From Roseimaritima multifibrata (GTDB taxonomy: Bacteria > Planctomycetota > Planctomycetia > Pirellulales > Pirellulaceae), in assembly GCF_007741495.1 (NCBI RefSeq), contig NZ_CP036262.1:4650001-4714000 (forward strand): 64,000 bases of DNA, written 5' to 3'. The notes beneath the pieces were generated by a model. It did no database searches and was not told the origin of the DNA. It worked only from the letters and a program-made list of their open reading frames with translations. Both the position numbers and the translations under genes were made by a program. Shown one piece after another: positions 8,355 to 40,235 of this stretch. Numbering within the stretch: the first letter of the stretch is position 1; the number at the start of each line of letters is the position of its first letter.

Positions 8355-8671
8355 TACTGCCAAACCGCTGATCTGCGACAATCGACAACCAAACCTGATT
8401 GCTTTGATCGGGTTGGTGTTCGGTCCGAATATCGGCAGATTGGCAATGTACGAACGGCTGGAGCCAAAGCCAATATTTGACTTCCGCGGCACCAGCGAAG
8501 AGACTGTGACATGTGACCGATTGTCGGTTTTTGATTGCTACCGATGCCGCTGATCGGCGCGATTATTCGCATCTAACACCCACTGATCCATCTCAGCAGA
8601 CCGTCTGTTTGCTGACGATGCCGCAGGCTGCCCTGCACCCCCTAATCAACACCCGAGGAAGAGGATCCCTA
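8355..8671. other. intergenic region without recognised features
   Basis: 317 bp between the S46 peptidase and sulfatase genes. An open frame continues upstream of the chosen sulfatase start, but its translation has no signal peptide and no family resemblance. No hairpin with a T-run or RNA gene was seen; it probably carries the sulfatase promoter. Confidence 0.4.
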
Positions 8672-10516: not shown

Positions 10517-10560
10517 GTTTTAGGTTGCGTCACAGGGAAAAGCCCGGTGCCATCCAACTT

Positions 10561-10747
10561 CTTAGCGGAACGGCGCAAGCCGTCTGGAAATTTTACGGGT
10601 TTTCAAGACGATTGCCGGACGGCTCGCGCCGTTCCGCTAAGAAAAATACCCGCAGATGCCAAAGCAGATAGCATCGGTCGCAAACCGTCTGGCAGCAGCC
10701 CTGGAAACCCCGCGTACTTGCCGGTCGGCTCGCGCCGATCCGCTAAG
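10561..10747. repeat. palindromic CTTAGCGG element, one full copy plus one decayed copy
   Basis: The full copy (10561-10641) runs from CTTAGCGGAACGGCGC to GGCGCGAGCC's partner CGCGCCGTTCCGCTAAG, with arms of about 27 nt that differ at two or three positions. A degenerate copy follows (about 10670-10747) whose right half, ending CGCGCCGATCCGCTAAG, is well kept. The preceding bases GGTGCCATCCA are complementary to bases after the copies at 46.0 kb, suggesting a longer terminal inverted repeat. Lies in the 333-bp convergent gap between the sulfatase and lipoprotein genes. Confidence 0.85.
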
Positions 10748-23726: not shown

Positions 23727-26700
23727 ATGTTTCCGAAGCGATCGGCTCCCCGCGTCCCAGCCTCCAGCCGCGGACAAACTGCGCGGCGACGTTTAGCCGC
23801 TGCACTACGCCCCCGACGCCGCCTCATTCGCATTGAACAGCTGGAAGACCGTCGCCTCCTGGCCGTCGGTACCCCCGTTCTTGGCACTAGCAATGACATT
23901 CTGTTCAGTGGGGATGCCACAAACGATTTGATGTTCTTTTCGGTCAGCGAAGCCGGTTTACTGCAGCACAATCGCGGAGGCTATTTTGGCTTTACCAGCA
24001 ATTCCGACCTCGATTCGGTAACCGCAGGGGAGCAAACGCGGCTAGTTAGCGAACTCACCAGTTTTCGCTATGAGGACGCTGGCAGCAATGACCGTCTGTT
24101 TTTTGACGGGGAGAATCCGTTTTCACTGGGCGATGCAGGAATTTACGCGTCGGCGGGTGAAATTACCGTCCGTGACGACACATCGATCGAATCGACCGGT
24201 GGAGTCATTCAGTTTGTCGCAGCTCAGAAAATCCTTCTCGATCAAAGATCAAGCCTGACGACGGTCGATGGGGGGATCCTACTATCGGGCAACCCGAATG
24301 CGGACGCCATCGGTGATTCCATCGGTTTGGAATCTGTGGGGGCGACGATTCGAACCAGCGGGTCAGGAAACATCCAGCTGGTCGGATTCGGCGGCAATGA
24401 CCCGGCAGAATATCGAAACTACGGGATTTCGCTGGAAGAGGGGACCACGATCGAATCGACCAGCGAAACGTCTTCGGCGGGAACGATTCAGATCGAAGGG
24501 ACCGGTGGAGACAGTTCCACTGCCGCGTACGGCGTCAACATCGATGGTGCCGACATCGTGGTCCGAAGTGCGTATGGAGACATCAGCATCGTGGGCGTGG
24601 GGGGGCACCGCAGCAGTGCCAGCGGCAGCAATTTCTATGGCGTGAATATCAGTGCGGCGGACGTTATTGAATCAACGGGTACCGGCCCCGATGCCGCAAC
24701 GATCACGATCGATGGGACGGGCGGGGCAGAGTCCCGAAACAACTACGGGGTTCGCTTGGCGGGTGCGACGACCGATATCCTCAGCATCGATGGCGACATT
24801 TTAATTATCGGGCAAGGGAACGGGGATGGCACCGGCGATACGAACTACGGCGTTCGCTCCGACAGTATTGGATCGATTGCATCGACGGGAACCGGCATCG
24901 ATGCCGCCTCGATCACGATCATCGGTGAGGGCGGCGATGGCACCCGCAGCGGTGTTGGCCTGTCGCTTAATGGCTCAACCACACAGCTGACCAGCGTCTA
25001 TGGCGATATTTCCATTGTCGGCCGAGGAAGCGACGGCAGCGGCTATGGCAATTCAGGTGGATCGATCGGACTTACGATCGCCTCGACCGGCCTCGGAGAG
25101 AACGCCGCGAAGATCGATATTCAAGGGACCGGAGGAATCAACACGTCCGGTAGTGGAATCACGGTTTCCGGATCAATCACGACGACCGACGGTGACGTCA
25201 CGATCACCGGCCTTGGGACAGGAGACGGAACGCGGAGTGGGGATGGCGGCGTCAACGTCACCGCATCGATCGACGCCGTTGGCGAAGCCGATATCATCAT
25301 TGACGGAACGGGCGGACAAGGAACCGGAGCCAACCATGGCGTCACAATCAGCTCCGGTGCTGCCCTGACGACCAAAGACGGCGAAATCCTGATCACCGGC
25401 CAAGGTAGCAACGGTGCCGGATCGAACAACTACGGAGTACACATTGCAAACATCGAAGGCATTGAATCGAAATGGCTTTCGGACGGCACGATTCCAAGTC
25501 CCGCCAAGATAACGATCGATGGTACAGGGGGCGACACAGGGGGAGGGAACCATGGCGTCTACTTCGACGGTGCCAGCGAAGGGATCACTAGTGTCGATGG
25601 AGCGATTCTTATCACGGGAAGAACAGGGACAGGGACAGGGCCGAGCAACGTCGGTGTCCGCATGCGCGATTTCGGAGCCATTCAATCGACCGGAACGACC
25701 GCCCACGCAGCGACGATCACGATCCACGGTGAAGGTGGATTCGGGCAATCGAATAACTACGGCGTTTTGATCGACAGCATCAATCGCAGCAGCGTCAGTA
25801 GCTTCGTTGGCGATATCTTGATCACCGGTATCGGAGGGACAGGGGATCCGGACGTTTCCCAAAGTTCCAACCGCGGACTGGTTTTAAGCAATGTTGAAAT
25901 TGCCTCGCTCGGCACCCCCGACAATGCGACGGGAACCCCGGCCACCATTACGATCAACGGAACGGGTGGCATCGCAGATCGCCAAAATTACGGAACGTAT
26001 ATCAATGCATCCGCAGTGAAAAGCGTGATCGGGAATATCGACATTCGCGGTGAAGGTGGTGGGGCAGGAACCGGGGATACCGGAGTCGTGATCAGCAGCA
26101 CTGAACTAGTCTCCTCAGGCGAAGGTGATCAAGCTGCAACGATTACTATCCACAGCGAAAGCGGTGTTTCAGGGGCAAGTCTGACGCTATCAACCATCGA
26201 TGGGGACGTGTCATTCACCGGGCTGAATGGATCGTCTGCGTATGGAACGGGAGTGCTCACTTCGACCGGGGACGGAATGATTCGCTTCGACGGTGGAACC
26301 GTCAATGCGGGCAGCATTACGAGTGAAACCAGCGACATCGTCCTTAGGGGCGGCGCGATCACGGTGGGTACCGTCGAATCGACCGGCACCGGCGAAACCG
26401 CAGCCAAGATTCTGATCGGCGACGCATCGACTCATTCCATCCAGGTCAACGGTGACCTGACCAGCGTCGATGGCGACATTCGGATCGTCAACCAAATCAC
26501 CGATCCGTCGACCGGAGTCGGTTCGATCCTGCTTCGCGGCAATATTACATCAACGGGCATCAACGCGAACCATGCCGCCTCGATAACGATCGATGGGACG
26601 GGAGCCGAAAATCAAGTGGGGGTTTGGTTTTCCGGAGCGGGCAAGTCAATCACCAGTAAAGTCGGCGACATTGAAATCACCGGACGGGGCGGAGCTTCTG

Positions 26701-29700
26701 CGACAGGTAGCTCACTGCACGGCGTCTTCCTCGATCGCGACGTGTCGATTTCCTCGACCGGGACCGACACCGACGCGGCTCAAATCGATATCCATGGGAC
26801 GGGCGGCGCCGGCGTCAACAGCAACCACGGTGTCTATTTCCGAGGCGATGAAGAAGGTTCGATCACCAGTGTCGTCGGTGCGATTTCGATTACAGGTACT
26901 GGTGGTGCAGGGACGGGAAAATCCAGTGCAGGTGTTAGCATCGAAGAAGCGTCGATCTCTTCGACCGGTATTTCCTCAGCCAGCCCGGCGATCGACGCAG
27001 CCACAATCACGATCACGGGTATCGGGGGATCAGGTACTTCGGGAAACGACGGCGTTTACGTCGGTACCGACACGGCCATCTCCAGCATCGATGGCGCCAT
27101 ATCGATTGATGGAACTGGAGGCGACGTAGGGAGCGGTGTCATTTTGCAATACCAAAGTTCACTTACATCCAGCGGAGTAGGAAGCGACGCCGCCTCAATC
27201 ACCGTCAACGGTACCGCCGGACTGGGGGCCTACGGAAGGGGTGTTTCCATGTCCCGAAATATGGTCAACAGCGTCGACGGCGATGTCACCGTCGAAGGCT
27301 ACGGAAGTGCAGGCCGGAGCCTAGGAGTGTACATCGACGGTTCCCAGGTTGCCTCGACAGGGACGGGCGTACATGCGGCAGAAATTTCGATCCTTGGGAT
27401 AGGGGGGGAGGAGGGCAGCTACGATAACTATGGCGTCACTGTCCGCAGGTCCACGACCTCTTTTACGACCATCGATGGCGACTTAACCATCTTCGGGCAA
27501 GGAGGGTCATCAGGCAGTACCATCGGGCTCCGCGTTGAAACATTCGACACGATTGCGTCCACCGGAACGGGGCCGAACGCTGCAAAGATCTCCCTCACAG
27601 GCGTCCTTCCTGATGGTACAAGCGGTACTGCCATGACCTTCGCTTACGGTGGCAGAAATCTGATCACAAGTGTGGAAGGTGACATTGCACTGACCGTCAA
27701 TGCCAATGGCTCCAACGGACTATTCGGCCCCTCTGGGTTGGTGCAGATTGAATCAACGGGCGTCGGTGCAGATGCAGCCGAAATTTCAATTGAGAGTTTG
27801 GGTGGCGAAGGTGGGTCGATCAGCCTGTCCGAAGGAAGTCGAATTGACACCGTTGACGGTAACATCGCGTTGAACAGTGCCCGAAGCATCTACGTCCATG
27901 GTTCGATTTCCTCAACAGGGACCGGAATCCATGCAGGCCAGATCCGTATCGACGACAGTCGTGCCGTGTCGGTAAGTGGGAGTATAACAAGCATCGACGG
28001 GGACATTTCGGTCTCTTCGATCAAGGGTGACGCCCCCTTATCAACTGGTTACGTCTTAATGCAAGGAAGCATCGCCTCTACTGGAGTCGGTACGTCGGCG
28101 GCGACAATCACGATTGAAGGTCAAACCAAGGCTTCGATGACGTCTGGAGTCCGCATTCACGGAGAAGTTTACTCTACCGATGGTGATATTCAGATCTTGG
28201 GAACAGGCAGTGGCCAATATCGAAGTGGAGTTGAAGTTGCCTACGGCGGATCTGTAAAATCGCTTGGAAGCGACAAAGCACATGCTGCCACAATCACCAT
28301 CGATGGCAGCAGCGGGACCGAGGGAGGCCTTGGCATTCAATTGCTGGGAGAAACCGTTGACAGTTCCATAGTGTCCACCATCGCTGGTGATATCCGTATT
28401 ATTGGCGACGGCGGAAACGGCCCCCAGCACGCGAACAGAGGCGTCTGGATTCGCAAAGGATTTGTCCAATCCACGGGTGCAGCATCTGACAACGCCGGCA
28501 ACATCACCATCGAAGGGTCCGGTGGAGATGGAGGGACCTATGATCTGGTCGGTGTGGACATATCCACCGACGCCAAAATAGTTACCGTCGCGGGTGACAT
28601 CGAAATCATCGCCGAAGCGGGCGTCGGTTCAGGCAGTAATAACGATGGGCTGAGACTTGGCGGAGTCAGCCTAATCGGAGACGCCAGTACAGCGGGCGAT
28701 ATCACCATTCAGGCCGATTCAATTGACCTTCAATCGGGAACCGTCCAGTCGACCGGCCTTCTGACCATTGCACCTGGACAGGCGGGTACACCGATTGGAA
28801 TCGGGGGCGGGGCTGGGGATCTGAATTTAAGCGATGCCGAATTAGCGCTGCTGGTTGACGGTTTTAATTCGATCACGATCGGGGATGCAACCGCCGGAAT
28901 CATCGACATTGATACCGCGACGTTCACCGACAACGTGAGCCTGATCGGATCGGCATTCCATGACCATGCGGGAACCGATATCGATATGGGAGCCAATACC
29001 CTATCGCTGATTGGAACCATCGCGCCGGGACAGTCGCCCGGCATCCTTCGCCTAGCGGGCGCTATCGAATTTGCCGATGCGACGGTGCTGGATCTGGAAA
29101 TCGATGGCCCCGACGCGGATGAAACGGCCAACGGTCACGATCAGGTCAGCGTCACTGGAACGCTGATCATCGGCGCCGGCGTGACGTTGCAAACGGCGAC
29201 CACCAACGGATTCGATCCGCTGCTCGGTCAACAACTTGTGATCGTTGAAAATGATGAGACCGATCCGATCGAAGGGGAGTTCGCTGGACTGCCCGAAGGG
29301 TCAATTCTGACCAATTTTCTGGGCGTTCCGCTGGATGCCCGCATCTCGTACCTGGGGCTAGACGGGGCGACCGGGAACGATGTCGTGCTGACGATCATTG
29401 CAGGAAATTTGGCCCCCACCGCCGACGCTGGCGGCCCCTACTTTATCGACGAGGGAGATTCGCTGACACTTGACGCCTCCCTTTCCTCGGCCCCCGACGA
29501 CGACCCTCTTGACTATACCTGGGATCTTAACGGCGACGGAGATTTCAGCGACGCTGTAGGCATGACGCCGATGATCCCCTGGTCCGAACTGGACGCTTTG
29601 GGAATCGGCAACGTCGCCCAGTTTACGGCAACGGTATCCGTCGATGATGGTCGCGCGGCGGCGGTGACCGCGACGACCACCGTCAACGTGCAGCTTAACG

Positions 29701-32700
29701 CACCGCCGATTGCCAATGCCGGTGAATCGTACGAGGTGGGCGAAGGTGGATCGATCCAACTGAACGCCAACGGTTCAACGGATGACAAAGGGATCGAAAA
29801 CCTGACGATCACCTGGGATCTGGATGGCGATGGTCTGTTCGGTGAAACCGGTATCGATGCGGAACGTGGCGATGAAACGGGGGCGCAGCCCACCTTCTCC
29901 GCGACGGATGTCGATGGAACTAAGAACGTTAGCGTAACGGTCCGCGTCGAAGATGATCGTGGCAAGGTCGATTCGGATACGACAACCGTCTCGGTTCAGA
30001 ATATCGCTCCAACGCTAATCCTTGATTCCGAGGTCACGATCGTTCGAGGCGACTCCATTACGGTGGAGGGATCGTTCGTGGACCCAGGACCGGACACCTG
30101 GACCGTGACGGTCGATTATGCCGATGGCACCGGCCAAGAAACCCTTGACCTAGATGGCAAGAAATTCGATCTGGATCATGAATACAATGTCGCCGGGACC
30201 TATCTGGTGGTGGTCACGGTGGACGATGGCGATGGAGGCGTCAGCAGCCAGAACTTAAAAGTGATTGTCAACCTACCTCCGCTGCCAGACCTGACGTTGA
30301 TCTCTTCGGACATTCGCTATTTGCCGATTAACCCAGCGGTTGGCGATCCGGTCAACTTTGTCGTTGATGTGACCAATGCCGGGTCGCTTGCCGCAACCGA
30401 CGTCCCCGTCCGGTTCATGGTGTATGACGCCGTCAGCGAATCGTTCGTTGAAATTGGTCATACAGTGATCGATTCAATCGATGCGAGTCCCGACAGCGAG
30501 GGGGAGACTTCCCAAAGCGAGGTTCTCTTTACCTGGGACGGATCCGCAGGCCAGCCGCCTCTACCTCAAGAAGACGTATTCCTGTTAGTTCGAGTGGAGG
30601 TTGACGCGGGCTCGGAAATCGAGGAATTGGATGAATCCAACAACGAGGACATTCAAATCCTGCAGGTGGGCAGCCCCGACTTCGGGACGGCCGCAATTAC
30701 CGCGAATATCTCTGACAAAACGGTCTACCGAAACGAACTTGTAGCGGTTGGTGGACAGGCATACTACGATTTCAGTACGGTTCCAGGAGACTTTGATTTT
30801 CCAATCCAAGGTGCAAGCGTGACCATGCGATTGCTTGATCCTGCGAGCGGTCTTGTGCTGGCGGCGTCCACCGTCCTAACGGCGTCCAACGGTAATTTTT
30901 TGCATACGATCCGGTCCCCTGAATTGGACGGGGATTACACCCTTCGATTCGAAGTCACCGAGGGGACGTTGAGCACTGTGTTTGAGTCCACGCTGACCGT
31001 GCTGGGCGATTCCCCTGAAGAACCGCCGTCCCCTCCGCGATCGCCACCTTCACGAGGCTACGTTTTCTTTCCGTCGATTCAGTTCACTCAATCGGTGATC
31101 CCACCGGGCAATCCACAAATCGGTGAACCGGTGACGATCGTCGGCACCTTTAACTATGAACTTGCCCAACCTCTTCTAAATGTTCCCGTGACATTTAATG
31201 ATCTGTTCCCCGTCGCGGGAGAAGTGCGCACATTCGAAATTGGCAGCGGGTTCGTCAATTTTCCCGATGGCGGATTAGAAGACCCGACGCTGCTGCCAAT
31301 GGACTGGACTCCGACGGCCGAAGGTTTCCATATCATTCAAGTCATTGCAGAGCCGGATTTCAATTTCCGGGCTCATACTCACGTGACCCAGTTACTACTG
31401 GTCGGAGACCTGGACACGTCATCGCTCACGCTTGCCTATGAATTACCGACGGTCGTGGAGCTACCACAGCTCCGCGCCGGCGCGCGCATGTTCCCAATTT
31501 TTGCGGCCGCCCAAGCTCCCCAAACCCCCAGCCCCGGCGATACGGTTACTTACACCATCCGCTACGAAAACACGGGCGATACCACCATCACCGGCGGCCA
31601 GCTGATCGATGACTTTGATGAAACGGTGGTGGGAGTTCCGACGAACATCAGTGACGGTGGCGTCGTCGATGGAAGCGTTGTCCGCTGGGAACTTGGAGAC
31701 ATCCCTGCAGGGGCTTCTGGGACGGTTTCTTACGAAGTGACCATCAATGAAGCGGCCGAACTGCCACCCGGCTCGGCATTCGTGTTTAACACCGCCGTGC
31801 TGAATACAGATCAGGCAGCCGCGGCAAGCACTTCGGAACTATTGCTTAGCAATGACTCCCCTGTGATCACCAATTTGAACATCGAACCGATGGTTGCCGA
31901 AAACGGGAACGTGACATTGGCAGGAACGTTCAGCGATGCCAGTTTGGAGGACACACACACCATCCAAATCACGTGGGGTGATGGTCAGACAGACACACTG
32001 CTGTTCACCGCCGGCGAACGTGCATTCTCGCTGCCCCACTCATACGATTTGACCGCAACGCCGTACGTCGAATCCTACGAGATAGCTGTCACCCTGACAG
32101 ATAGCAGCGGACAAAATTCCAACGGCAGTGTGACAACGCAAACACCCGTCGTTGCTCCGCCAGTGCCTGATGAACAGAGCCCCAACAGCTCGGTAGCCTC
32201 GGCGGTATGGAATACCGAGACGAACCTGTTTGACCTGTTGGTCGACTTTGCAGACCCTCCTGGGGGAGCGGATGCACCGGTTTCCGGCGTCCAGCACCTA
32301 GAGGTTTTCTATCGTGTCAATCCGCAGAATGGGAATTCGGCGGTTCAACGGTTTGGCGATATAACGTTATCGCCTGCTTCTCCGGCCGGTAGCCAATTAT
32401 TATCTAGAACGATCGATGCCCAACCGGGCGATATCATCCAGGTCTGGAGTGTCGCCACTGACGGATCAGGAAATGTCGAAAACGAAGTGACGCCGCGAAC
32501 CGACTATTCGTTTGCAGTCGCCGACACGGTCGGCCCCGACACGCAAGTCCTTTCGGCGATCTTTGACGGAAACGCGTTTATTGACCTGCATGTTTCAGGC
32601 GTCGACGTTGGTGGCGGTCACGTCGATTCGATCGACGTTTATGTGGAAACGAGAACAGGAACCGCAAGTCCCATCGTCAGCTTAATCGGCACGATTCCCG

Positions 32701-33449
32701 GCGGAGCCGCCATGGTCGACGAAACCATCAAATTTGCAGTCCCACAAGATGGCGTGATCCGGCCCTACCGCTTCTTCAGTATCGGAACGGACCACCTCGG
32801 TAATCGCGAAGGTGGCAACAGCCTGCTGGACGGGGACCCGGGACCAGAAGGGGACGTCCTGCTTTCCGATATTGTACTGGAGGAACCTTCCGCCGCCGTC
32901 GTCACTGGTTTTGATGTCAACAACGGATTGGAGAACCGCTCCTCCGTCCATTCAGCTGACATTCTTTTTAATGATGAGAACTTTATCGACCAGCTTCTAG
33001 AATCCTTGAACGATGAGGATTCAAGTAACGACCGAATTCGCATCGAGCGTCTAGACCTGAACGGAAATTCCATCGAGCCTCCAGTCTACTTACCAGTGAC
33101 AGCGGTTCAGGACGGACTGACGCTTCGCCTTCAATTCGGGGCAACTGGAATCCAAGAAAACGGCGTCTATGCCATTCGCTTGGACATGGACGATGATGCC
33201 GACAACGAATGGGACGATGAACTTCAATTCCATCGATTGAAGGGGGACATCAACGGTGACGGTGCCGTCGATACAAGCGATCTCCTAAAGGCGAGACTCG
33301 CCTATCGGAACAGCGCGTTACACGCGGATGCAGACGTTGACGGCAACGGCATGGTCGATGCATTCGACCTGCGATTTTTCTCAACCTTCCTGCGTCAACG
33401 TGACGGTGAGAAAGTTCTAGGGATGCCGAGAGAAGAGTTGGACGACTAA
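23727..33449 (+). CDS. giant secreted repeat protein (beta-solenoid, PKD, CARDB, DUF11-like, dockerin)
   Basis: A 3,240-residue protein. The N-terminus is arginine-rich and ends with the planctomycete secretion-type motif IEQLEDRRLLAVG (about residues 36-48). Residues about 100-1700 hold some 22 imperfect repeats of about 60 residues built on STGTGxDAAxITIxGTGG and DGDIxIxGxGG, likely a right-handed beta-helix. Then come PKD-like domains (from about 1890, 1990 and 2090: NLAPTADAGGPYF, IANAGESYEV, IAPTLILDSE), a CARDB-like domain (about 2186, LPDLTLISSDI ending EELDESNNED), a DUF11-like domain (about 2595, SPGDTVTYTIRYENTGDTT), a further PKD-like segment, and a C-terminal type I dockerin (GDINGDGAVDTSDLL, DVDGNGMVDAFDLRFF). 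An adhesin or matrix role is inferred. The ATG at 23727 precedes the N-terminal motif. Confidence 0.9.
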   Translation: MFPKRSAPRVPASSRGQTARRRLAAALRPRRRLIRIEQLEDRRLLAVGTPVLGTSNDILFSGDATNDLMFFSVSEAGLLQHNRGGYFGFTSNSDLDSVTAGEQTRLVSELTSFRYEDAGSNDRLFFDGENPFSLGDAGIYASAGEITVRDDTSIESTGGVIQFVAAQKILLDQRSSLTTVDGGILLSGNPNADAIGDSIGLESVGATIRTSGSGNIQLVGFGGNDPAEYRNYGISLEEGTTIESTSETSSAGTIQIEGTGGDSSTAAYGVNIDGADIVVRSAYGDISIVGVGGHRSSASGSNFYGVNISAADVIESTGTGPDAATITIDGTGGAESRNNYGVRLAGATTDILSIDGDILIIGQGNGDGTGDTNYGVRSDSIGSIASTGTGIDAASITIIGEGGDGTRSGVGLSLNGSTTQLTSVYGDISIVGRGSDGSGYGNSGGSIGLTIASTGLGENAAKIDIQGTGGINTSGSGITVSGSITTTDGDVTITGLGTGDGTRSGDGGVNVTASIDAVGEADIIIDGTGGQGTGANHGVTISSGAALTTKDGEILITGQGSNGAGSNNYGVHIANIEGIESKWLSDGTIPSPAKITIDGTGGDTGGGNHGVYFDGASEGITSVDGAILITGRTGTGTGPSNVGVRMRDFGAIQSTGTTAHAATITIHGEGGFGQSNNYGVLIDSINRSSVSSFVGDILITGIGGTGDPDVSQSSNRGLVLSNVEIASLGTPDNATGTPATITINGTGGIADRQNYGTYINASAVKSVIGNIDIRGEGGGAGTGDTGVVISSTELVSSGEGDQAATITIHSESGVSGASLTLSTIDGDVSFTGLNGSSAYGTGVLTSTGDGMIRFDGGTVNAGSITSETSDIVLRGGAITVGTVESTGTGETAAKILIGDASTHSIQVNGDLTSVDGDIRIVNQITDPSTGVGSILLRGNITSTGINANHAASITIDGTGAENQVGVWFSGAGKSITSKVGDIEITGRGGASATGSSLHGVFLDRDVSISSTGTDTDAAQIDIHGTGGAGVNSNHGVYFRGDEEGSITSVVGAISITGTGGAGTGKSSAGVSIEEASISSTGISSASPAIDAATITITGIGGSGTSGNDGVYVGTDTAISSIDGAISIDGTGGDVGSGVILQYQSSLTSSGVGSDAASITVNGTAGLGAYGRGVSMSRNMVNSVDGDVTVEGYGSAGRSLGVYIDGSQVASTGTGVHAAEISILGIGGEEGSYDNYGVTVRRSTTSFTTIDGDLTIFGQGGSSGSTIGLRVETFDTIASTGTGPNAAKISLTGVLPDGTSGTAMTFAYGGRNLITSVEGDIALTVNANGSNGLFGPSGLVQIESTGVGADAAEISIESLGGEGGSISLSEGSRIDTVDGNIALNSARSIYVHGSISSTGTGIHAGQIRIDDSRAVSVSGSITSIDGDISVSSIKGDAPLSTGYVLMQGSIASTGVGTSAATITIEGQTKASMTSGVRIHGEVYSTDGDIQILGTGSGQYRSGVEVAYGGSVKSLGSDKAHAATITIDGSSGTEGGLGIQLLGETVDSSIVSTIAGDIRIIGDGGNGPQHANRGVWIRKGFVQSTGAASDNAGNITIEGSGGDGGTYDLVGVDISTDAKIVTVAGDIEIIAEAGVGSGSNNDGLRLGGVSLIGDASTAGDITIQADSIDLQSGTVQSTGLLTIAPGQAGTPIGIGGGAGDLNLSDAELALLVDGFNSITIGDATAGIIDIDTATFTDNVSLIGSAFHDHAGTDIDMGANTLSLIGTIAPGQSPGILRLAGAIEFADATVLDLEIDGPDADETANGHDQVSVTGTLIIGAGVTLQTATTNGFDPLLGQQLVIVENDETDPIEGEFAGLPEGSILTNFLGVPLDARISYLGLDGATGNDVVLTIIAGNLAPTADAGGPYFIDEGDSLTLDASLSSAPDDDPLDYTWDLNGDGDFSDAVGMTPMIPWSELDALGIGNVAQFTATVSVDDGRAAAVTATTTVNVQLNAPPIANAGESYEVGEGGSIQLNANGSTDDKGIENLTITWDLDGDGLFGETGIDAERGDETGAQPTFSATDVDGTKNVSVTVRVEDDRGKVDSDTTTVSVQNIAPTLILDSEVTIVRGDSITVEGSFVDPGPDTWTVTVDYADGTGQETLDLDGKKFDLDHEYNVAGTYLVVVTVDDGDGGVSSQNLKVIVNLPPLPDLTLISSDIRYLPINPAVGDPVNFVVDVTNAGSLAATDVPVRFMVYDAVSESFVEIGHTVIDSIDASPDSEGETSQSEVLFTWDGSAGQPPLPQEDVFLLVRVEVDAGSEIEELDESNNEDIQILQVGSPDFGTAAITANISDKTVYRNELVAVGGQAYYDFSTVPGDFDFPIQGASVTMRLLDPASGLVLAASTVLTASNGNFLHTIRSPELDGDYTLRFEVTEGTLSTVFESTLTVLGDSPEEPPSPPRSPPSRGYVFFPSIQFTQSVIPPGNPQIGEPVTIVGTFNYELAQPLLNVPVTFNDLFPVAGEVRTFEIGSGFVNFPDGGLEDPTLLPMDWTPTAEGFHIIQVIAEPDFNFRAHTHVTQLLLVGDLDTSSLTLAYELPTVVELPQLRAGARMFPIFAAAQAPQTPSPGDTVTYTIRYENTGDTTITGGQLIDDFDETVVGVPTNISDGGVVDGSVVRWELGDIPAGASGTVSYEVTINEAAELPPGSAFVFNTAVLNTDQAAAASTSELLLSNDSPVITNLNIEPMVAENGNVTLAGTFSDASLEDTHTIQITWGDGQTDTLLFTAGERAFSLPHSYDLTATPYVESYEIAVTLTDSSGQNSNGSVTTQTPVVAPPVPDEQSPNSSVASAVWNTETNLFDLLVDFADPPGGADAPVSGVQHLEVFYRVNPQNGNSAVQRFGDITLSPASPAGSQLLSRTIDAQPGDIIQVWSVATDGSGNVENEVTPRTDYSFAVADTVGPDTQVLSAIFDGNAFIDLHVSGVDVGGGHVDSIDVYVETRTGTASPIVSLIGTIPGGAAMVDETIKFAVPQDGVIRPYRFFSIGTDHLGNREGGNSLLDGDPGPEGDVLLSDIVLEEPSAAVVTGFDVNNGLENRSSVHSADILFNDENFIDQLLESLNDEDSSNDRIRIERLDLNGNSIEPPVYLPVTAVQDGLTLRLQFGATGIQENGVYAIRLDMDDDADNEWDDELQFHRLKGDINGDGAVDTSDLLKARLAYRNSALHADADVDGNGMVDAFDLRFFSTFLRQRDGEKVLGMPREELDD

Positions 33450-34410: not shown

Positions 34411-34637
34411 CGTGAACCACCGGCAGTGTCCAAACGCCCGGCTATCGCGAGCGTCTGCTGACCTCGGTGCCGATAACGCCGAGGGCTCTGCCCACGACAG
34501 GTCAAGTCTTTGGCGAACCAGGGCGTTTTGCCACAGCCCGCATGGGCGGCCGAACAGGTCACTGCGTTGAACGCGTAAAGAGTGGTTTTCAAGAGCATAA
34601 GTAAGGTCGGTTAGCGAAAAAAAACGCCTCCACCGAA

Positions 34638-34657
34638 ACATACACCTTGACATGCAC
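34638..34657 (+). promoter_or_regulatory. candidate Rrf2/NsrR-type operator upstream of hmp
   Basis: ACATACACCTTGACATGCAC: two ACAT(A/G)CAC half-sites repeated with a 12-bp period. The same layout occurs upstream of the Rrf2 regulator gene (39474-39493). It overlaps a TTGACA (34647-34652) that could be a -35 hexamer, which would suit repression. It lies 99 bp before the hmp start. Confidence 0.5.
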
Positions 34658-34755
34658 TATAGAAAGTATACCTTTAGATAGAGATTTCAAAGCGACGCTA
34701 TTTACGGCGTTTGAAATTTTCCCTCCAGGCCCCCCCTCCATCGAAAGCCCCGCCC

Positions 34756-36000
34756 ATGCTTAGCGATAAAACGATCCGGATTGTCAAGGAAATCACTCCG
34801 TTGGTCGCTGCCAACGCAGAAACCATTACTCGACGGTTTTACGAGCGGATGTTCGAAGCCAATCCGGAAGTGAAGGCCTTTTTCAACCAAGCTCATCAGC
34901 ACACCGGAGGTCAACAGAAGGCACTCGCCGGTGCGATCTGTGCTTATTTCACTCATATCGACAATCCGGCTGTCTTGATGCCCGCCGTTGAAATCATCGC
35001 TCAGAAGCATGTTTCGTTGGGGATCAAAGCGGAGCACTATCCGATTGTTGGCAGCAACCTGCTGGCCGCGATTAAGGATGTGATGGGGGAGGGAGCGACG
35101 GACGAAATCATCGAAGCGGTCGGGGAAGCCTACGGGTTCTTGGCCGACATATTCATCAGCCGTGAAAACGCGATTTGCGAAGAGCAAGCGTCCGCTCCGG
35201 GCGGCTGGAACGGCACGCGAACGTTTGTCGTGAGCAAAAAAATTGCCGAAAGCGACATCGTGACTTCGTTCTACCTGAAACCCGAAGACGAAGGCCCTCT
35301 ACCGCCGTTCAAACCCGGTCAGTACATCACCGTTCACATCGACCATCCGCACACGCCGACCTCCCCACGCAACTACAGCTTGTCCGACTGTGCCAGCCAG
35401 CCGCACTACCGGATCAGTGTCAAACGTGAAGAAAGGCTTTCGGCCGACGCGCCCGACGGATTGATCTCCAATCACTTGCACGACGGTATCGAAGAGGGGC
35501 ACCGGATTGAACTTGGACCGCCCTGTGGCGAATTCACCATCGATCCGGCCACGGTTGCGAAACCGGTCGTGTTGGTTGCCGGAGGTATTGGAGTGACGCC
35601 GCTATTATCGATGGCTAAATCGATCATTCACGCAAACCCGAACGCACCTGTCTATTTCATCCAAGCAGCTCGTAACAGCAAAGTTCAAGCGTTCGCCGAT
35701 GAGCTAGCCAATCTGTCGGATGCCGGACCGAACGTGCATACCAAGGTCATCTACGATGCGCCGTTACCCGGTGACGTCGAAGCTGGTCGATGCGATGACA
35801 CCGGCTACGTCACCACCGAATTGCTTCGCGGCTGGACGCCGTTTTCCGAAGCCGAGTTTTACTTTTGCGGCCCTAAACCGTTCATGCAGAACCTCCACGC
35901 ATGCCTGCAAGAACTGGGTGTTGACGAACATCGTGTGCGTTACGAATTCTTCGGCCCCAAGGAAGAACTGCAGCCGGCACCGTCAAACGTCGCTGGGTAA
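34756..36000 (+). CDS. hmp: flavohaemoglobin (nitric oxide dioxygenase)
   Basis: Oxidises NO to nitrate with O2 and NAD(P)H. The 414-residue product has the three Hmp domains in order: globin (residues 1-140) with Tyr in RRFYERMF, Gln in [11 protein letters not shown] and proximal His in [11 protein letters not shown]; a ferredoxin-reductase FAD domain with the PRNYSLS motif; and an NAD domain with [14 protein letters not shown] and [10 protein letters not shown], ending [12 protein letters not shown]. The start ATG at 34756 gives [15 protein letters not shown], the family's usual N-terminus; the open frame extends 15 codons upstream from a TTG. Regulation by the Rrf2 protein encoded at 39.6 kb is suggested by the shared motif upstream. 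Confidence 0.95.
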
Positions 36001-36061
36001 CCTTCACAACCACAAATCGGTTGGGTGAAAGCACTACAATATTTCGTATCCAATCTCCGGT

Positions 36062-36097
36062 GAAGCCGCGTCGGAAAAATCCCCGAAAAGCGGCTTC
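36062..36097. other. hairpin between hmp and cupin gene
   Basis: GAAGCCGC (36062-36069) and GCGGCTTC (36090-36097) form an 8-bp stem with a 20-nt loop, 61 bp past the hmp stop. No clean T-run follows on the plus strand, so it may be a weak terminator or processing site that separates hmp from the cupin gene. Confidence 0.35.
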
Positions 36098-36135
36098 AAT
36101 CTGTTCCTAATCAACTGCAATTTGAGACACAAACG

Positions 36136-36471
36136 ATGGCTATCAATCACGCGAACCCTGCCGAAGTCATCCATTTGCAACCACTTGGATCCAAGATCGA
36201 CAGCACCAAAACCTACACGTTGTTCAAGACCGACGTGATGGAAGCGATTCGGCTGGTGATGCCAGCTGGAAAACAGATCCCCGAACATAAAGCTCGCGGC
36301 GAAATCACCGTTCACTGCTTAGAAGGGGCTGTTAAATTCTTTGTCGGCGAAACACCCCACGAACTGTCCGCCGGAGACATGCTTTACCTAGAAGCCGGCA
36401 AACTTCACGCGGTGGAAGCGATCGAGGATTCAACGGTGTTGGTAACCATTTTCCTAAACAAAGCGAGCTAG
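36136..36471 (+). CDS. small cupin-domain protein
   Basis: A 111-residue single-domain cupin. The barrel motifs are recognisable: GKQIPEHKARGEITVHCLEG (motif 1-like, with His and Glu ligand candidates) and GDMLYLEAGKLHAVEAIEDS (motif 2-like, with His). The lone small cupin could bind a metal or small ligand; no substrate can be named. It is placed directly before the RIC gene, and the conserved N-terminal coding sequence of RIC begins right at or inside its 3' end, so the two are likely translated from one message. The position inside an NO-stress cluster suggests it is part of the same response. Confidence 0.82.
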   Translation: MAINHANPAEVIHLQPLGSKIDSTKTYTLFKTDVMEAIRLVMPAGKQIPEHKARGEITVHCLEGAVKFFVGETPHELSAGDMLYLEAGKLHAVEAIEDSTVLVTIFLNKAS

Positions 36472-36554
36472 CCATCTCGGATCCACGTGCCGGCGCGTTA
36501 CATGCAGACTCTCCTGTCGGGCTCTGGGTCGCTAAGCACCCCGAGACCGCGGAA

Positions 36555-37205
36555 GTGTTCGACATGTTGCAAATCGACTACTGCTGTGGTGGCGACAAAC
36601 CACTTGAAAACGCTTGTTGGGAAAATGGACTAGAGGTTTTGCGAGTCCACTCCTTACTGAAGCAGACGGTAGCCGAAACGCACGACACCGAGCACCCGGA
36701 TTGGATGCATGCATCGCTGACGGAGCTTTGCGACCGTATCGAACAGAAACACCATGCCCGGCTAAAAGACTCGCTACCATTGCTGAGCCGTTTGATGGCG
36801 GAGGTCGTCGCTCTTCACGGCGAGGCTCACGAAGAATTGCGAGAGGTAGAGCAGCACTTCATGACATGGCGAGACGAAATCTTGACCGCGATGGCTGAAG
36901 AGGAGCGTTCATTGTTTCCCGCAATTCGTCAGTACGATAGCGAAGCGTTTACAGATCACAGCGAAACGCTCACGGCGCCCCTTCAAGAAATGATTTATCG
37001 GGTCCGTTTCGAGCACGCCGACATTGGCGAAGCGTTGAAAAAAACTCGAAGTGCGTCAAAGAATTTCTTAGCGCCGAAAGATGCCTGTGCAAAGTTTTCG
37101 CAGATGTACCAACTGCTACGGTGGACCGAAGCCGACGTCCGTCAGTATGTCCACAAGGAGGAATCCATACTGTTTCCCCGCGTTAAAAAAAGATTACAAG
37201 GCTGA
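36555..37205 (+). CDS. ric: RIC/YtfE/ScdA di-iron protein for Fe-S cluster repair
   Basis: Restores iron-sulfur clusters damaged by NO or oxidants. The hemerythrin-like four-helix part carries the expected His/Glu ligands: EQKHHARLKD, VALHGEAHEELREVEQHF, MAEEERSLFPAI, FEHADIGEAL and YVHKEESILFPRV. The N-terminal ScdA_N motif, FDMLQIDYCCGGDKPLENAC, has the two conserved adjacent cysteines. The GTG at 36555 is the first usual start in this frame, but similarity to the family continues upstream (VGLWVAKHPETAEV, from about 36498), where the frame is open through the cupin stop yet has no ATG, GTG or TTG. Either a rare start codon is used or the domain is shortened. Confidence 0.88.
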   Translation: MFDMLQIDYCCGGDKPLENACWENGLEVLRVHSLLKQTVAETHDTEHPDWMHASLTELCDRIEQKHHARLKDSLPLLSRLMAEVVALHGEAHEELREVEQHFMTWRDEILTAMAEEERSLFPAIRQYDSEAFTDHSETLTAPLQEMIYRVRFEHADIGEALKKTRSASKNFLAPKDACAKFSQMYQLLRWTEADVRQYVHKEESILFPRVKKRLQG

Positions 37206-37218
37206 CAAAAGTTGCCCG

Positions 37219-37527
37219 TTAGGGAACTTCTATCAACACGTCGTCCTCTTTGGTCTTGACCGCGTACGCCTGCACATCTCGCACGCCCGGTCCGCCGAGA
37301 AGTTTGCCTGTGGTGACATCGAATTCGGCACCGTGCCAAGGACATATGGCAACGCAGCCTTCGACACGGCCATCACTCAACGGCGCCCCCTGATGCGGGC
37401 AAGCATCATCGATTGCGTAGAAAACACCGTCAACATTAAACAATGCGATCAGGTAATCATCCACGATCACCAATTTGCCTGTTCCTACCGGAACATCCTG
37501 CGATTTCGCTGCTTTGATCCAAGGCAT
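37219..37527 (-). CDS. Rieske-type [2Fe-2S] ferredoxin
   Basis: A roughly 102-residue soluble Rieske protein of the NirD / dioxygenase-ferredoxin type. The cluster ligands are in CPHQGAPL and CPWHGAEFD (Cys-X-His and Cys-X2-His, 17 residues apart). It has no membrane anchor, so it is a cytoplasmic electron carrier. The ATG at 37527 has GAGG 9 bp before it; a TTG at 37536 is an alternative. It overlaps or nearly touches the 3' end of the upstream gene on the same strand (stop at 37533), so the two are translationally linked. Redox partner unknown; by position it probably serves the NO-stress response. Confidence 0.88.
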   Translation of the reverse strand: MPWIKAAKSQDVPVGTGKLVIVDDYLIALFNVDGVFYAIDDACPHQGAPLSDGRVEGCVAICPWHGAEFDVTTGKLLGGPGVRDVQAYAVKTKEDDVLIEVP

Positions 37528-37532
37528 TGCCT

Positions 37533-37985
37533 TCAATCCTCCCGGGTGAATTTGGCGATCTGCCGGCCTTTCATGTGCTCAACCTCACGCAGACGTTTCG
37601 CTAGTTCAATGACCGAGGGCGCGGCGGTGCTGTCCTCGATTCGGTCTAACAATTCGTCCAGTCGTTGATCCGATACCAATGCACAGGAAAGCGCTTCTTG
37701 AAAAGACGATTCGTCTTTGCAATTGCACTCGACGGCATGGAGCGCTTCCGAACTGAGCCTTGGACCTGAGAGCAGATAGGTCGAATGCTCCGGCGGCAAC
37801 CGCTGCATCTCGTCACGAACAACATTCATCGAATCGGTTTCCAGTTCGACTAAATGTTTTAGTAGGATATCGGCCTTCGGATCGACACTTGCTTTGCAAA
37901 GACGTTCATACCGCTCTGCTCGCTGTTGGTGATAGTCGGCTAACATCCCCAACACATCATAGATCGTGTTTGGTTGATTCATCAT
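37533..37985 (-). CDS. hypothetical helical protein, possibly ferritin-like
   Basis: A 150-residue protein predicted as four amphipathic helices (around residues 8-30, 40-65, 92-115 and 122-145). Helices carry Glu/His residues in places that could bind a di-iron centre (HQQRAERYERL, KHLVELETD, ELAKRLREVEHMKG), which recalls ferritin-like or rubrerythrin-like bundles, and a CNC pair occurs mid-protein. I do not recognise a named family. It is co-directional and overlapping with the Rieske gene, and divergent from the SdhB-like gene. An iron-binding partner of the Rieske protein is only a guess. A second ATG at 37982 is an alternative start. Confidence 0.6.
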   Translation of the reverse strand: MMNQPNTIYDVLGMLADYHQQRAERYERLCKASVDPKADILLKHLVELETDSMNVVRDEMQRLPPEHSTYLLSGPRLSSEALHAVECNCKDESSFQEALSCALVSDQRLDELLDRIEDSTAAPSVIELAKRLREVEHMKGRQIAKFTRED

Positions 37986-38038
37986 TCACCTCCCGAACGC
38001 ACGCTAGACTGGACAACTGGAAGACTCGCACGTATTGT

Positions 38039-38054
38039 ACATCGCCGGGTACAT
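38039..38054. promoter_or_regulatory. weaker ACAT-N8-ACAT site in divergent promoter
   Basis: GTACAT at 38037-38042 is repeated as GTACAT at 38049-38054, giving ACAT twice with the same 12-bp period as the sites at 34638 and 39474, though the CAC part is missing. It lies in the 102-bp region between the divergent four-helix and SdhB-like genes. Confidence 0.3.
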
Positions 38055-38087
38055 GTTTGTCAGGTCTCCATTTACCGGATGAATTTC

Positions 38088-38915
38088 ATGTCGCAAGAAC
38101 AATTCGCGGTTCGCGTCCAGCGTCAAAATGATCCGTCGCAGGCGCCTTACTGGCATACTTTCCTGTTAGATTACGAACCGGGATTAAACGTCACCAGTCT
38201 GCTGCAACGGATCGCAGCAAATCCGACCACCATCGACGGTGCCCATGTGGCTCCGGTCGCGTACGAGTCGGGGTGTTTGGAAGAGGTATGCGGTTCCTGC
38301 ACGATGCGTATTAACGGTCGTGTACGTCAGGCGTGCTCGGCGTTGGTCGATCATTTACTGAAAGAGGATCCGAGCGGGATTGAACTTCGTCCGATGAGTC
38401 AATTCCCGGTCGTGCGAGACCTGTTCGTCGATCGCTATCGGTTGTTCCGAGCCTTAGAAAAACTGCAGTGCTGGGTTCCTGTTGACAGCTATGACGACAT
38501 GGGGAGCGGACCGAAGCAGTCGGCCAAACAACAAGAACAGAACTACCCGCTAAGCCAATGCATGAGTTGCGGCTGCTGCTTGGACGCCTGTCCTCAATAT
38601 AAGGAAGTCACGATTGAGCGTCACAAAGACGAATCGGAAGAGGCATTTGAGGAACGCCGCGATGCCGAACTGGATCGCCACTTCATTGGCGCCGCGGCGA
38701 TGAGCCAAGCGGTGTTGATGAATTCAAATCCGATCGGCAAAGTGCTTGCGACCAGCCGCATCGAAGCGATGACCGCGCCGGGAGGCATCCAAAATTGCGG
38801 CAAAGCGGGGAACTGCCAAGCGGTCTGCCCCAAAGAGATTCCGCTGATGACTTCTTGGGGGCGAGCGAACCGATCCGCAACCATTCACTACGTCAAGAAG
38901 TTCTTCGATGGTTGA
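38088..38915 (+). CDS. sdhB: succinate dehydrogenase/fumarate reductase iron-sulfur subunit-like protein, orphan
   Basis: A 275-residue SdhB/FrdB homologue with all three cluster regions: [2Fe-2S] ESGCLEEVCGSCTMRINGRV with a further Cys in RQACSALV; [4Fe-4S] CMSCGCCLDACPQ; and CGKAGNCQAVCPKEIPL for the third cluster. In complex II this subunit passes electrons from the flavoprotein SdhA to quinone. No sdhA or membrane-anchor gene is next to it, so it may belong to the main complex encoded elsewhere or be a paralogue for stress use. ATGs at 38079 and 38088 are both possible; the frame is open to 37974. The next gene overlaps it by 8 bp. Confidence 0.88.
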   Translation: MSQEQFAVRVQRQNDPSQAPYWHTFLLDYEPGLNVTSLLQRIAANPTTIDGAHVAPVAYESGCLEEVCGSCTMRINGRVRQACSALVDHLLKEDPSGIELRPMSQFPVVRDLFVDRYRLFRALEKLQCWVPVDSYDDMGSGPKQSAKQQEQNYPLSQCMSCGCCLDACPQYKEVTIERHKDESEEAFEERRDAELDRHFIGAAAMSQAVLMNSNPIGKVLATSRIEAMTAPGGIQNCGKAGNCQAVCPKEIPLMTSWGRANRSATIHYVKKFFDG

Positions 38916-39345
38916 ACCTGTTCGCGGCGTCAAACGCATCCTGTACTGGATGTTAGCGTTCCTGTTTTTCGCACTGGGGATGATCGGAGTTGTTCTTCCG
39001 GGGATTCCAACCACGCCATTCCTGCTGCTGATGGGTTATTTTCTCCTGCGAGTTTCCCCATCGCTGCACGCCAAGGCGATGGCGTGGCCGGTCGTTGGCG
39101 GTCCGCTTCGCGACTGGCGAGACCAAGGGGGCGTACGACCAAACGTCAAACGCCTGGCATACACGATGGTCGCGGTTTTGGTCGGATCGACACTTGTGTT
39201 TAGCAACCTACCTCTCAGCCTTAAGGCGGTCATTTTGGGTGCCGCCCTCTTCGGCGTTTCGGTTGTCGCCCGTTTGCCTGTCGCCCGCGACGATCTGGCA
39301 AGGATTGAAACGGAACTGAAAACGGTACGGTCAACGTTCAAGTGA
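38908..39345 (+). CDS. DUF454 (YbaN-like) inner-membrane protein
   Basis: A 145-residue membrane protein with the DUF454 signature: ALGMIGVVLPGIPTTPFLLL in the first hydrophobic segment, a second hydrophobic region (TMVAVLVGSTLVFSNLPLSL) and a third (AVILGAALFGVSVV). The family is of unknown function. It overlaps the 3' end of the SdhB-like gene by 8 bp, which implies translational coupling and perhaps a membrane role for that subunit, as no SdhC is present; this is inference. Confidence 0.85.
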   Translation: MVEPVRGVKRILYWMLAFLFFALGMIGVVLPGIPTTPFLLLMGYFLLRVSPSLHAKAMAWPVVGGPLRDWRDQGGVRPNVKRLAYTMVAVLVGSTLVFSNLPLSLKAVILGAALFGVSVVARLPVARDDLARIETELKTVRSTFK

Positions 39346-39473
39346 TCCCCTCGATCCGTTCCCCTTCACCAAGTGGACCGAGCGGAACAACCCATCGACG
39401 GCAAGTTGTCGATCCGCTTGCCCCCTGGCGATCGGCTGCAATTGTTTCGACGAACCGTGCAGGGTAGACTCAT

Positions 39474-39493
39474 ATATGCACCTAGACATACAC
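39474..39493 (+). promoter_or_regulatory. candidate autoregulatory operator upstream of the Rrf2 gene
   Basis: ATATGCACCTAGACATACAC: two A(C/T)AT(A/G)CAC half-sites, 12-bp period, same 4-bp spacer pattern CT(A/T)G as the site upstream of hmp. It lies 56 bp before the regulator's start codon. Confidence 0.5.
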
Positions 39494-39549
39494 GTTAAGC
39501 CGTTACCTGCCGCCCCGAGTTCATTTCTCCATTCCCGTTGGCTGACCGA

Positions 39550-39978
39550 ATGCTCCCCAAAACCGCTGAATATGCCCTTCGCGCGGTCGCCTGCATGAGT
39601 CGCCACCCCGATCGGCCGATTTCGGCGAACCTGCTGGCCGAACAAACCAAAGTGCCACGGCGCTACTTGTCGCGTGTAATGCAAGATCTCTGCACCGCTG
39701 GAATGGTCAAGTCGCGTCCCGGTCCCGGCGGTGGGTACGAACTGACGCTCTCTCCCAGTCGAGTGACAATACTAGACGTCATCAACACCGTCGCGTCGAT
39801 CCCACGAATCGAAAAATGCCCGCTCGGCCTGAAGACTCACACCCGACTCTGTCCGCTACATGCAGTACTGGACAAAGCCTATGAGGCGACTGAAAAAGCT
39901 TTTGCCAGCGTCACGATTCAAGACCTGCTGGAATCGACCAATCCCATCGTTCCGCTTTGCGAAAGCGTTTCTCCATGA
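39550..39978 (+). CDS. Rrf2-family transcriptional regulator (NsrR-like)
   Basis: A 142-residue winged-helix regulator. The N-terminus [16 protein letters not shown] and the recognition region [19 protein letters not shown], then the wing [13 protein letters not shown], are typical of Rrf2. Fe-S-sensing members have three cysteines; here CPLG (C90) and CPLH (C101) are present and a middle third is not, as in the CPLG/CPLH Rrf2 subgroup. Neighbouring hmp and RIC genes are the classical NsrR targets, so sensing of NO is the most likely role. The ATG at 39550 is chosen over an upstream TTG at 39538. The DUF3565 start codon overlaps its stop (ATGA). Confidence 0.9.
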
Positions 39979-40235
39979 GCGACAAGACCGACGGCGACCA
40001 GCAACCGATCATCGGCTACCACCGTGACGACGAAGGTCACTGGGTCGCGCAATTAGCATGCGGACACAACCAGCATGTCCGCCATGACCCGCCATTGGTC
40101 CACCGCGAATGGGTCAGATCCCCAGCGGGTCGCGATTCAATGCTGGGCTTCGAACTCCTCTGCAGAAAATGTGTCGAGGATGCCCCAGCAGACGATCGAC
40201 CAGCATCTACGGGAAGCGAAGATCGAAACGGCTAG
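39975..40235 (+). CDS. DUF3565 family protein
   Basis: An 86-residue protein with the family pattern: [37 protein letters not shown], and [11 protein letters not shown] at the end. The conserved Cys and His residues (CGH, HVRH, CRKC) suggest a metal-binding site. Function unknown. Its ATG overlaps the stop of the Rrf2 gene, so it belongs to that transcription unit and may be part of the NO response. Confidence 0.82.

Follow-up and report, generated by a model that had tools for sequence, protein, structure and literature searches.

A candidate nitric oxide regulon in Roseimaritima multifibrata with its own operator-like palindrome and a stand-alone paralogue of the succinate dehydrogenase iron-sulphur subunit

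In Roseimaritima multifibrata (Planctomycetota; Pirellulaceae), nine genes lie close together at positions 34,756 to 40,235 of a 64,000-nucleotide window, the whole stretch of DNA analysed here (positions 4,650,001-4,714,000 of one 7,216,590-base contig, NZ_CP036262.1; this genome is G000 below). The block reads as a putative nitric oxide (NO)-responsive regulon with an Rrf2-family repressor, its own operator, and an unexpected member, SdhB2, a stand-alone paralogue of the iron-sulphur (Fe-S) subunit of succinate dehydrogenase. As a whole, the block may be an Rrf2-repressed NO regulon in which SdhB2 most likely serves as a replacement Fe-S subunit of succinate dehydrogenase in times of stress, a reading to which we give roughly an even chance.

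The nine genes were placed by Pfam and NCBIfam scans. A first-pass annotation, made from the letters alone, had described a nitrosative-stress block with an Fe-S or iron theme; all nine genes are where it had put them, their families agree with the scans (the helical protein matches no family), and both the stress assignment and the theme are supported by the sequence. The genes and the operator-like sites are as follows.

34637-34660, no strand: operator-like 24-bp palindrome upstream of hmp (position weight matrix (PWM) score 21.7; among the 8 genome-wide pattern matches)
34663-34686, no strand: second, tandem operator-like site upstream of hmp (PWM 22.0; misses the strict pattern)
34756-36000, plus strand: hmp, NO-detoxifying flavohaemoglobin (NF009805, 533 bits, cut-off 432)
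36136-36471, plus strand: small cupin (PF07883), recurring near SdhB2 and in some loci near qNOR, hmp or RIC
36474-37205, plus strand: RIC/ScdA/YtfE-type di-iron Fe-S repair protein (ScdA_N and Hemerythrin)
37219-37536, minus strand: small soluble Rieske ferredoxin (PF00355, 1.2e-19; start TTG 37536 or ATG 37527)
37533-37982, minus strand: four-helix protein without a family name (no Pfam or NCBIfam match above cut-off; predicted ferritin-like fold)
38034-38057, no strand: operator-like palindrome in the gap between two divergent gene pairs, helix-Rieske and SdhB2-DUF454 (matrix and strict pattern)
38079-38915, plus strand: SdhB2, stand-alone SdhB paralogue (NF006391/PRK08640, 330.4 bits, cut-off 244; start ATG 38079 or 38088)
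38908-39345, plus strand: DUF454 protein, YbaN-like and presumed membrane-bound (PF04304, 2.7e-23; overlaps SdhB2)
39473-39496, no strand: operator-like palindrome upstream of Rrf2, presumed autoregulation (matrix and strict pattern)
39550-39978, plus strand: Rrf2-family regulator, presumed repressor of the block (PF02082, 1.4e-28; conserved CPLG...LCPLH)
39975-40235, plus strand: DUF3565 protein (PF12088, 1.1e-29; ATGA overlap with Rrf2)

The consensus of the 24-bp palindrome, AATSTACACCTNNAGGTGTASATT, came from a palindromic expectation-maximisation search of 20 of the 45 listed upstream stretches, with 40 random starts for the real set and 25 for each shuffle. Its log-likelihood ratio was 153.8, compared with a maximum of 48.4 over 40 dinucleotide shuffles, and a clear site was present in 17 of the 20 stretches; within the 180 bases given for each, the site before the window cupin was weak, and none was found before the Rrf2 gene of locus L059 or the SdhB2 gene of L051. 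A matrix built from only the eight hmp, RIC and Rrf2 promoters recovered 10/12 of the SdhB2, helix and cupin promoters with scores that no more than about five positions of the 64 kb attain, the window cupin and L051 being the two that failed. Under the full matrix, the four top-scoring positions of the 64 kb all fall inside the block; three of these four were in its training set.

A strict pattern, WWNNTRYAYNNNNNNRTRYANNWW, was used for genome-wide searches, with the same pattern read backwards as the control. It has eight matches in the 7.2 Mb of the own genome (five for the control), including three in the block; of the others, one is found before a second Rrf2 gene and one before a PQQ-propeller gene, which has relatives in the clusters of genomes G108 and G083 and adjoining SdhB2 in G038. 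Eight further genomes gave 52 matches and 32 for the control. Over all nine genomes, 35 of the 60 matches lie within 400 bp upstream of a listed regulon gene, and the proportion follows the matrix score: 25/28 at 20 or above, 35/43 at 17 or above, and 0/17 below 17. Eleven of the 60 are also training sites; on a recount without them, 24/49 are near a listed gene, and 15/18 at a score of at least 20. The listed kinds include some added after inspection (YwiC-like, Tll0287-like, the 450-490-residue family, molybdopterin oxidoreductase and multihaem cytochrome), and the PQQ-propeller was taken from neighbourhoods. In G000 and G108 the strict pattern matches before SdhB2, and in G077, G037 and G038 the matrix marks a site there; the helix gene carries the operator in G000, G083 and G088; and the Rieske gene lies behind an operator-bearing helix gene in G000 and has one site in common with SdhB2 in G108. 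From these sites we infer that the Rrf2 protein of the block would bind them and that NO would induce the genes.

The own genome has a housekeeping sdhB adjoining sdhA at 1.974 Mb, and its product is 62% identical to SdhB2. In a 31-row family tree, ten SdhB2 rows form a clade apart from 21 housekeeping rows with a support of 100/100. The housekeeping rows are the 21 best-scoring ones with loci, three near-identical loci having been reduced to one; the remaining housekeeping SdhB hits and an interrupted copy of G037 (C5) were left out of the tree, and the SdhB2 of G019, which is missing its first domain, is a row of the tree and does not enter the column counts. The surroundings divide in the same manner. 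SdhA lies within 1.5 kb at 21/21 housekeeping loci and at 0/11 SdhB2 loci, whereas a cupin, Rieske, helix, DUF454, RIC, quinol-dependent NO reductase (qNOR), PQQ-propeller or ccoN-like oxidase gene lies within 1.5 kb at 10/11 SdhB2 loci and 0/21 housekeeping loci. These 11 loci include two from G037 (one an interrupted copy) and the G019 copy without the first domain; at the eleventh, in G003, the cupin is about 4.6 kb away. SdhB2 resembles PRK08640-type SdhB in keeping the cluster cysteines and scoring above the curated cut-off, and differs from it in having no SdhA neighbour, a clade of its own and an NO-type operator-like site. An SdhB2 profile matched 9 of 294 phylum genomes at E 1e-100, exceeding 500 bits only in G000 and G038 (same family); the 340-440 bits of its other rows match what housekeeping SdhB reaches. 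Against plasmid records, the best match had 43% identity.

The own genome holds one SdhA, the sole other match being 31% identical. As SdhB2 has no SdhA beside it and the genome holds just one, a replacement subunit is the simplest reading. The housekeeping-type SdhB is a part that NO could be expected to damage, and the second copy is perhaps a built-in spare. In the proposed mechanism, Hmp would remove NO and RIC would repair Fe-S clusters while NO would damage the clusters of housekeeping SdhB; de-repressed SdhB2 would then join the sole existing SdhA and the membrane anchor, and the resulting complex would keep succinate:quinone electron flow going. DUF454, the cupin, the Rieske protein and the four-helix protein would be accessories in metal or cluster maintenance or in electron supply. 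Docking to SdhA, the exchange of subunits and the accessory roles are in this scheme projected from sequence comparison.

SdhB2 keeps 100 of the 122 columns conserved in housekeeping SdhB. Besides Cys64, 12 cysteine columns are invariant in the 21 housekeeping rows, and all are kept in 9/9 SdhB2 rows. Cys64, which precedes the first [2Fe-2S] ligand by two residues and is presumably not a ligand itself, is present in 21/21 housekeeping rows and is Ser or Ala in 8/9 SdhB2 rows, while W62Y and I260W are found in 9/9. Clearly changed columns are denser in residues 200-278 (9/39, compared with 5/83 elsewhere; p 0.012, uncorrected, for one of four cuts); other cuts were not significant (halves, p 0.27; residues 236-278, p 0.15). 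In complex II structures, the N-terminal domain of SdhB faces SdhA and its C-terminal part faces the membrane and the quinone. It is possible, rather than probable, that some Pirellulaceae have an NO-inducible spare SdhB, without the extra cysteine near the first cluster and with changes towards the C-terminal part on the membrane side, which would be produced under NO only, so that complex II would be rebuilt rather than repaired.

The same changes bear on another explanation, in which SdhB2 would work without SdhA, as half of a new electron-transfer module in the membrane with DUF454 as the other half, the three-cluster protein docking on DUF454 in place of the usual anchor and passing electrons to or from the quinone pool, for example to supply a quinol-dependent NO reductase. 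Consistent with this are the denser C-terminal changes, I260W in 9/9 included, the presence of qNOR in several SdhB2 clusters, and the overlap of SdhB2 with DUF454 in the window (8 nt), G077, G108 and the G083 remnant. However, only five of the 62 conserved columns in residues 1-140, which face SdhA, are changed; the own genome gave no qNOR with the G108 query, in a search that had no positive control; and DUF454 adjoins SdhB2 in only 4/12 loci, being beside RIC in G037. The recurrence of the SdhB-like and DUF454 pair, which the first-pass annotation had proposed as a check, holds as an overlap for four of 12 SdhB2 loci, the G083 remnant counted. A single-sequence model of the DUF454 protein had a mean predicted local distance difference test of 62 and a pTM of 0.35 and was set aside. 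Overall, such a module seems unlikely. We consider very improbable a non-catalytic role as an Fe-S decoy, as a sensor or as a store of clusters, to be destroyed first by NO and refilled by RIC: SdhB2 does co-occur with RIC and NO removal genes, but the SdhB-type columns that it keeps are more than a sink needs.

Several points weigh against SdhB2 as a replacement subunit within an NO regulon. The promoters for the motif search were picked after the motif had already been seen by eye. The backwards control has 37 matches in the identical nine genomes, compared with 60, and therefore many of the 60 matches are due to chance; the nine kinds of gene fixed earlier (the window genes and qNOR) account alone for 26/60. 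By pattern and matrix, no convincing site precedes SdhB2 in G052 or G097. Of the strict NO genes (hmp, qNOR, RIC), at least one lies within 1.5 kb at only 5/11 SdhB2 loci. SdhB2 is also uncommon, being found in at least 10/119 family genomes with the G083 remnant counted and with SdhB hits only partly placed in the tree; the gene has an internal deletion in G083 and is truncated in G019, and G037 and G077 each have a second, broken copy. G052, which is 78% complete, gave SdhB2 and no housekeeping SdhB. Finally, the presence of I260W and W62Y in 9/9 rows could mean a different partner.

The gene neighbourhoods of relatives recur in varying forms. In G108, about 11 kb hold hmp, qNOR, RIC, a GYD protein, a PQQ-propeller, cupin, Rieske, SdhB2, DUF454, Rrf2 and DUF3565, the qNOR being homologous over nearly its full length to solved single-chain NO reductases. 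The G052 cluster contains the end of a qNOR gene (at a contig edge), Rieske, cupin, SdhB2 and RIC; that of G097 (two copies) has qNOR beside SdhB2, and cupin; and G019 has a truncated qNOR-like gene and SdhB2. The cupin lies within 1.5 kb of SdhB2 in 6/11 loci, and also near it in the window (1.6 kb) and beside the G083 remnant; it is nearer than DUF454 to being a constant companion of SdhB2. It was found in 21/392 phylum genomes, and in another family of the phylum cupin loci hold Rrf2 and qNOR (G142), qNOR and the RIC N-domain (G398), hmp (G484) or the RIC N-domain (G373). SdhB2 was present in 0/15 of the larger cupin loci, in 11/15 of which the cupin was the only queried gene. The order and content of the clusters differ strongly among genomes, and an LptF/LptG gene directly follows the block, as would be expected if unrelated genes had gathered by accident. 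This explanation is hardly credible in view of dispersed loci with common operator-like sites and recurrent partners; the recurrent neighbourhoods and the common site indicate that the block is more than a chance assembly.

Another SdhB2 neighbourhood is that of G037 (L053 6476-10603), where SdhB2 is followed by a distant ccoN-like subunit, a FixO-like protein, cytochrome c proteins and a Rieske protein. The ccoN-like subunit scores 237 bits with TIGR00780 (cut-off 583), and the oxidase cluster is possibly a divergent NO reductase of the cbb3 lineage.

Overlapping genes were the basis of the earlier proposal of linked expression. SdhB2 ends at 38915 and the DUF454 ATG is at 38908, an overlap of 8 nt, and an ATGA at 39975-39978 holds both the stop of Rrf2 and the start of DUF3565; both overlaps were confirmed. 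The Rieske TTG at 37536 and the stop of the helix gene (37533-37535) overlap as TTGA, whereas from the ATG at 37527 there is no overlap. The relative in G077 has the identical TTGA arrangement and the identical later ATG, and since both are found in G000 and G077 this third overlap is conditional on the TTG start. In-frame internal deletions give further support to linked expression: in three cases from two relatives the first gene of a pair keeps its start and its end. The SdhB2 remnant of G083 has 47 codons and ends over the DUF454 start (L054, about 8250-8480); the Rrf2 remnant of the same genome has 26 codons and ends over the DUF3565 start (L054, about 10400-10570); and the helix remnant of G108 has 25 codons and ends four bases before the Rieske start (L050, about 9100-9200). 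As G083 and G108 are draft genomes, assembly error may account for some remnants; the pattern agrees with selection for translational coupling of the second gene, and these retained leader reading frames would back the reading of the overlaps.

It had also been suggested that the four-helix protein acts as a di-iron oxidase or reductase, with the Rieske protein as its electron donor. The TTGA overlap of 4 nt in G000 and G077, given TTG starts, and the operator on the helix gene in three genomes are in keeping with this, as is a ferritin-like model. The model, built from two sequences, is a four-helix bundle (predicted local distance difference test 74), and its best structural match is TM1526 (1vjx), with a VIA-align Z of 13.2 and a root mean square deviation of 3.6 over 143 residues, where helical bundles can reach about 13 by arrangement alone. 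The predicted fold may resemble that of TM1526, a putative ferritin-like di-iron protein, in its overall four helices; it differs in that identity is 13%, the Foldseek E is 0.067, and the ligand pattern of the window family is incomplete. Ferritin-like di-iron proteins have a paired carboxylate/ExxH ligand set on helices 1-4. The acids and histidines invariant in eight helix homologues are D34, H43, E48, E58, E110 and E135; in these eight rows helix 1 (7-31) has no invariant acid and helix 2 has no ExxH. Among eight intact helix loci, Rieske adjoins in G000 and G077 and does not in G037, G063, G083 and G088, and two loci, both from G038, end at a contig edge, leaving six assessable. In G108 the Rieske gene persists without an intact helix gene. 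Because of the ligand gaps and an adjacency of 2/6, a fixed donor and acceptor pair is unsupported, and this part of the first-pass annotation, which we now find quite improbable, is set aside. Profile searches for a function of the helix protein gave, beyond two genomes with a close form, weak relatives in 8/392 phylum genomes (E 2.7e-8 to 7.1e-4) and named no function. The Rieske protein falls below the equivalog cut-offs for aromatic-dioxygenase ferredoxins (PRK09965, 90.8 vs 113; HcaC, 68.9 vs 150).

Hmp has its globin, FAD and NAD domains and passes its equivalog cut-off. In RIC, PF04405 and PF01814 are above cut-off, and the equivalog TIGR03652 reaches 180.6 bits (cut-off 204.7). From the upstream stop (36333), the RIC frame has no ATG, GTG or TTG until GTG 36555, though the conserved domain starts earlier; ATC 36474, directly after the cupin stop codon, is suggested as the nearest candidate, which would mean either an unusual start codon or a damaged start.

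Further genes are linked to the operator-like site. A family of about 446-486 residues has it near the start in five places (L071, L136, L137, L139, L141), and at three of these places it is transcribed divergently from an Rrf2 gene; a scan of three members gave no Pfam match. PQQ-propeller (BamB-like) genes fall into the candidate regulon by operator (L072 1700-3022; L130 7888-9066) or by position in a cluster (L050 6926-8398). YwiC-like membrane proteins are directly under the site in L132 (3304-4095) and L140 (2489-3319), and a third, recognised by eye only (L133 1736-2497) and flanked by RIC and qNOR, lies downstream of a site. In two genomes the operator is between or beside multihaem cytochrome and molybdopterin oxidoreductase genes (L132 7364-10872; L054 13043-16664, G083), which suggests that genes of nitrate or nitrite respiration may belong to the regulon. 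Sites scoring above 20 without a listed gene within 400 bp are at L131 1665, L053 14103 and L017 14562; that at L053 14103 is just upstream of what appears by eye to be a type II NADH dehydrogenase gene. Just upstream of the block, window positions 23727-33449 encode a 3240-residue protein, repeat-rich by look. Five proteins scanned with a phage-defence library gave no match.

If the replacement reading is true, NO damage to complex II would be answered by a dedicated subunit swap besides NO removal and cluster repair, and subunit exchange under nitrosative stress would become directly testable. The operator would outline an NO regulon for Pirellulaceae, and it nominates the cupin, DUF454, PQQ-propeller, YwiC-like, Tll0287-like and four-helix proteins and the family of about 450-490 residues as NO-response genes. 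In open-licence PubMed Central, no titles or abstract starts tied an SdhB paralogue or DUF454 to an NO regulon, and no paper with both DUF454 and NsrR was found. A Helicobacter paper with 'sdHb' (PMC5577044) was discarded, as haemoglobin is meant and 'succinate' has 0 occurrences in the portion of its text covered.

Among known systems, the nearest is the NO-responsive Rrf2 regulator NsrR. The regulator of the block has the same Rrf2 winged-helix domain (PF02082), and operator-like sites are predicted upstream of hmp, RIC, the NO reductase and the regulator itself; with the NCBIfam NsrR equivalog NF008240 it scores 41 bits and does not reach the cut-off of 182. Whereas NsrR has three cluster-binding cysteines, the block-type regulator has two in this stretch (CPLG...LCPLH), in 7/7 complete aligned rows; the row of L059 is truncated by the edge of its locus, and the alignment omitted the distant Rrf2 of L133.

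In proteobacteria and Gram-positives, as given in the portions of the published regulon analysis used here, NsrR has palindromic sites upstream of hmp, dnrN/ytfE (RIC) and norB, and the regulated genes cluster with hmp as they do in the block (PMC1274295). The words 'succinate', 'cupin' and 'planctomyc' each have 0 occurrences in the main text of that paper. According to the same portions, the published operator is gATGyAT-(N5)-ATrCATc, while the palindrome of the block is TRCAY-(N6)-RTGYA (AATSTACACCTNNAGGTGTASATT). What is new compared with known NO-responsive Rrf2 regulons is the operator of its own and the unexpected member SdhB2. The closest parallel in logic is Vibrio fischeri, for which those portions of PMC1274295 predict an alternative oxidase in the NsrR regulon. 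In both cases a part of the respiratory chain appears to be placed under an NO-responsive Rrf2 regulator, so that a replacement would be made when NO is present; in V. fischeri this part is another terminal oxidase, whereas in R. multifibrata it would be a paralogue of a single subunit of complex II.

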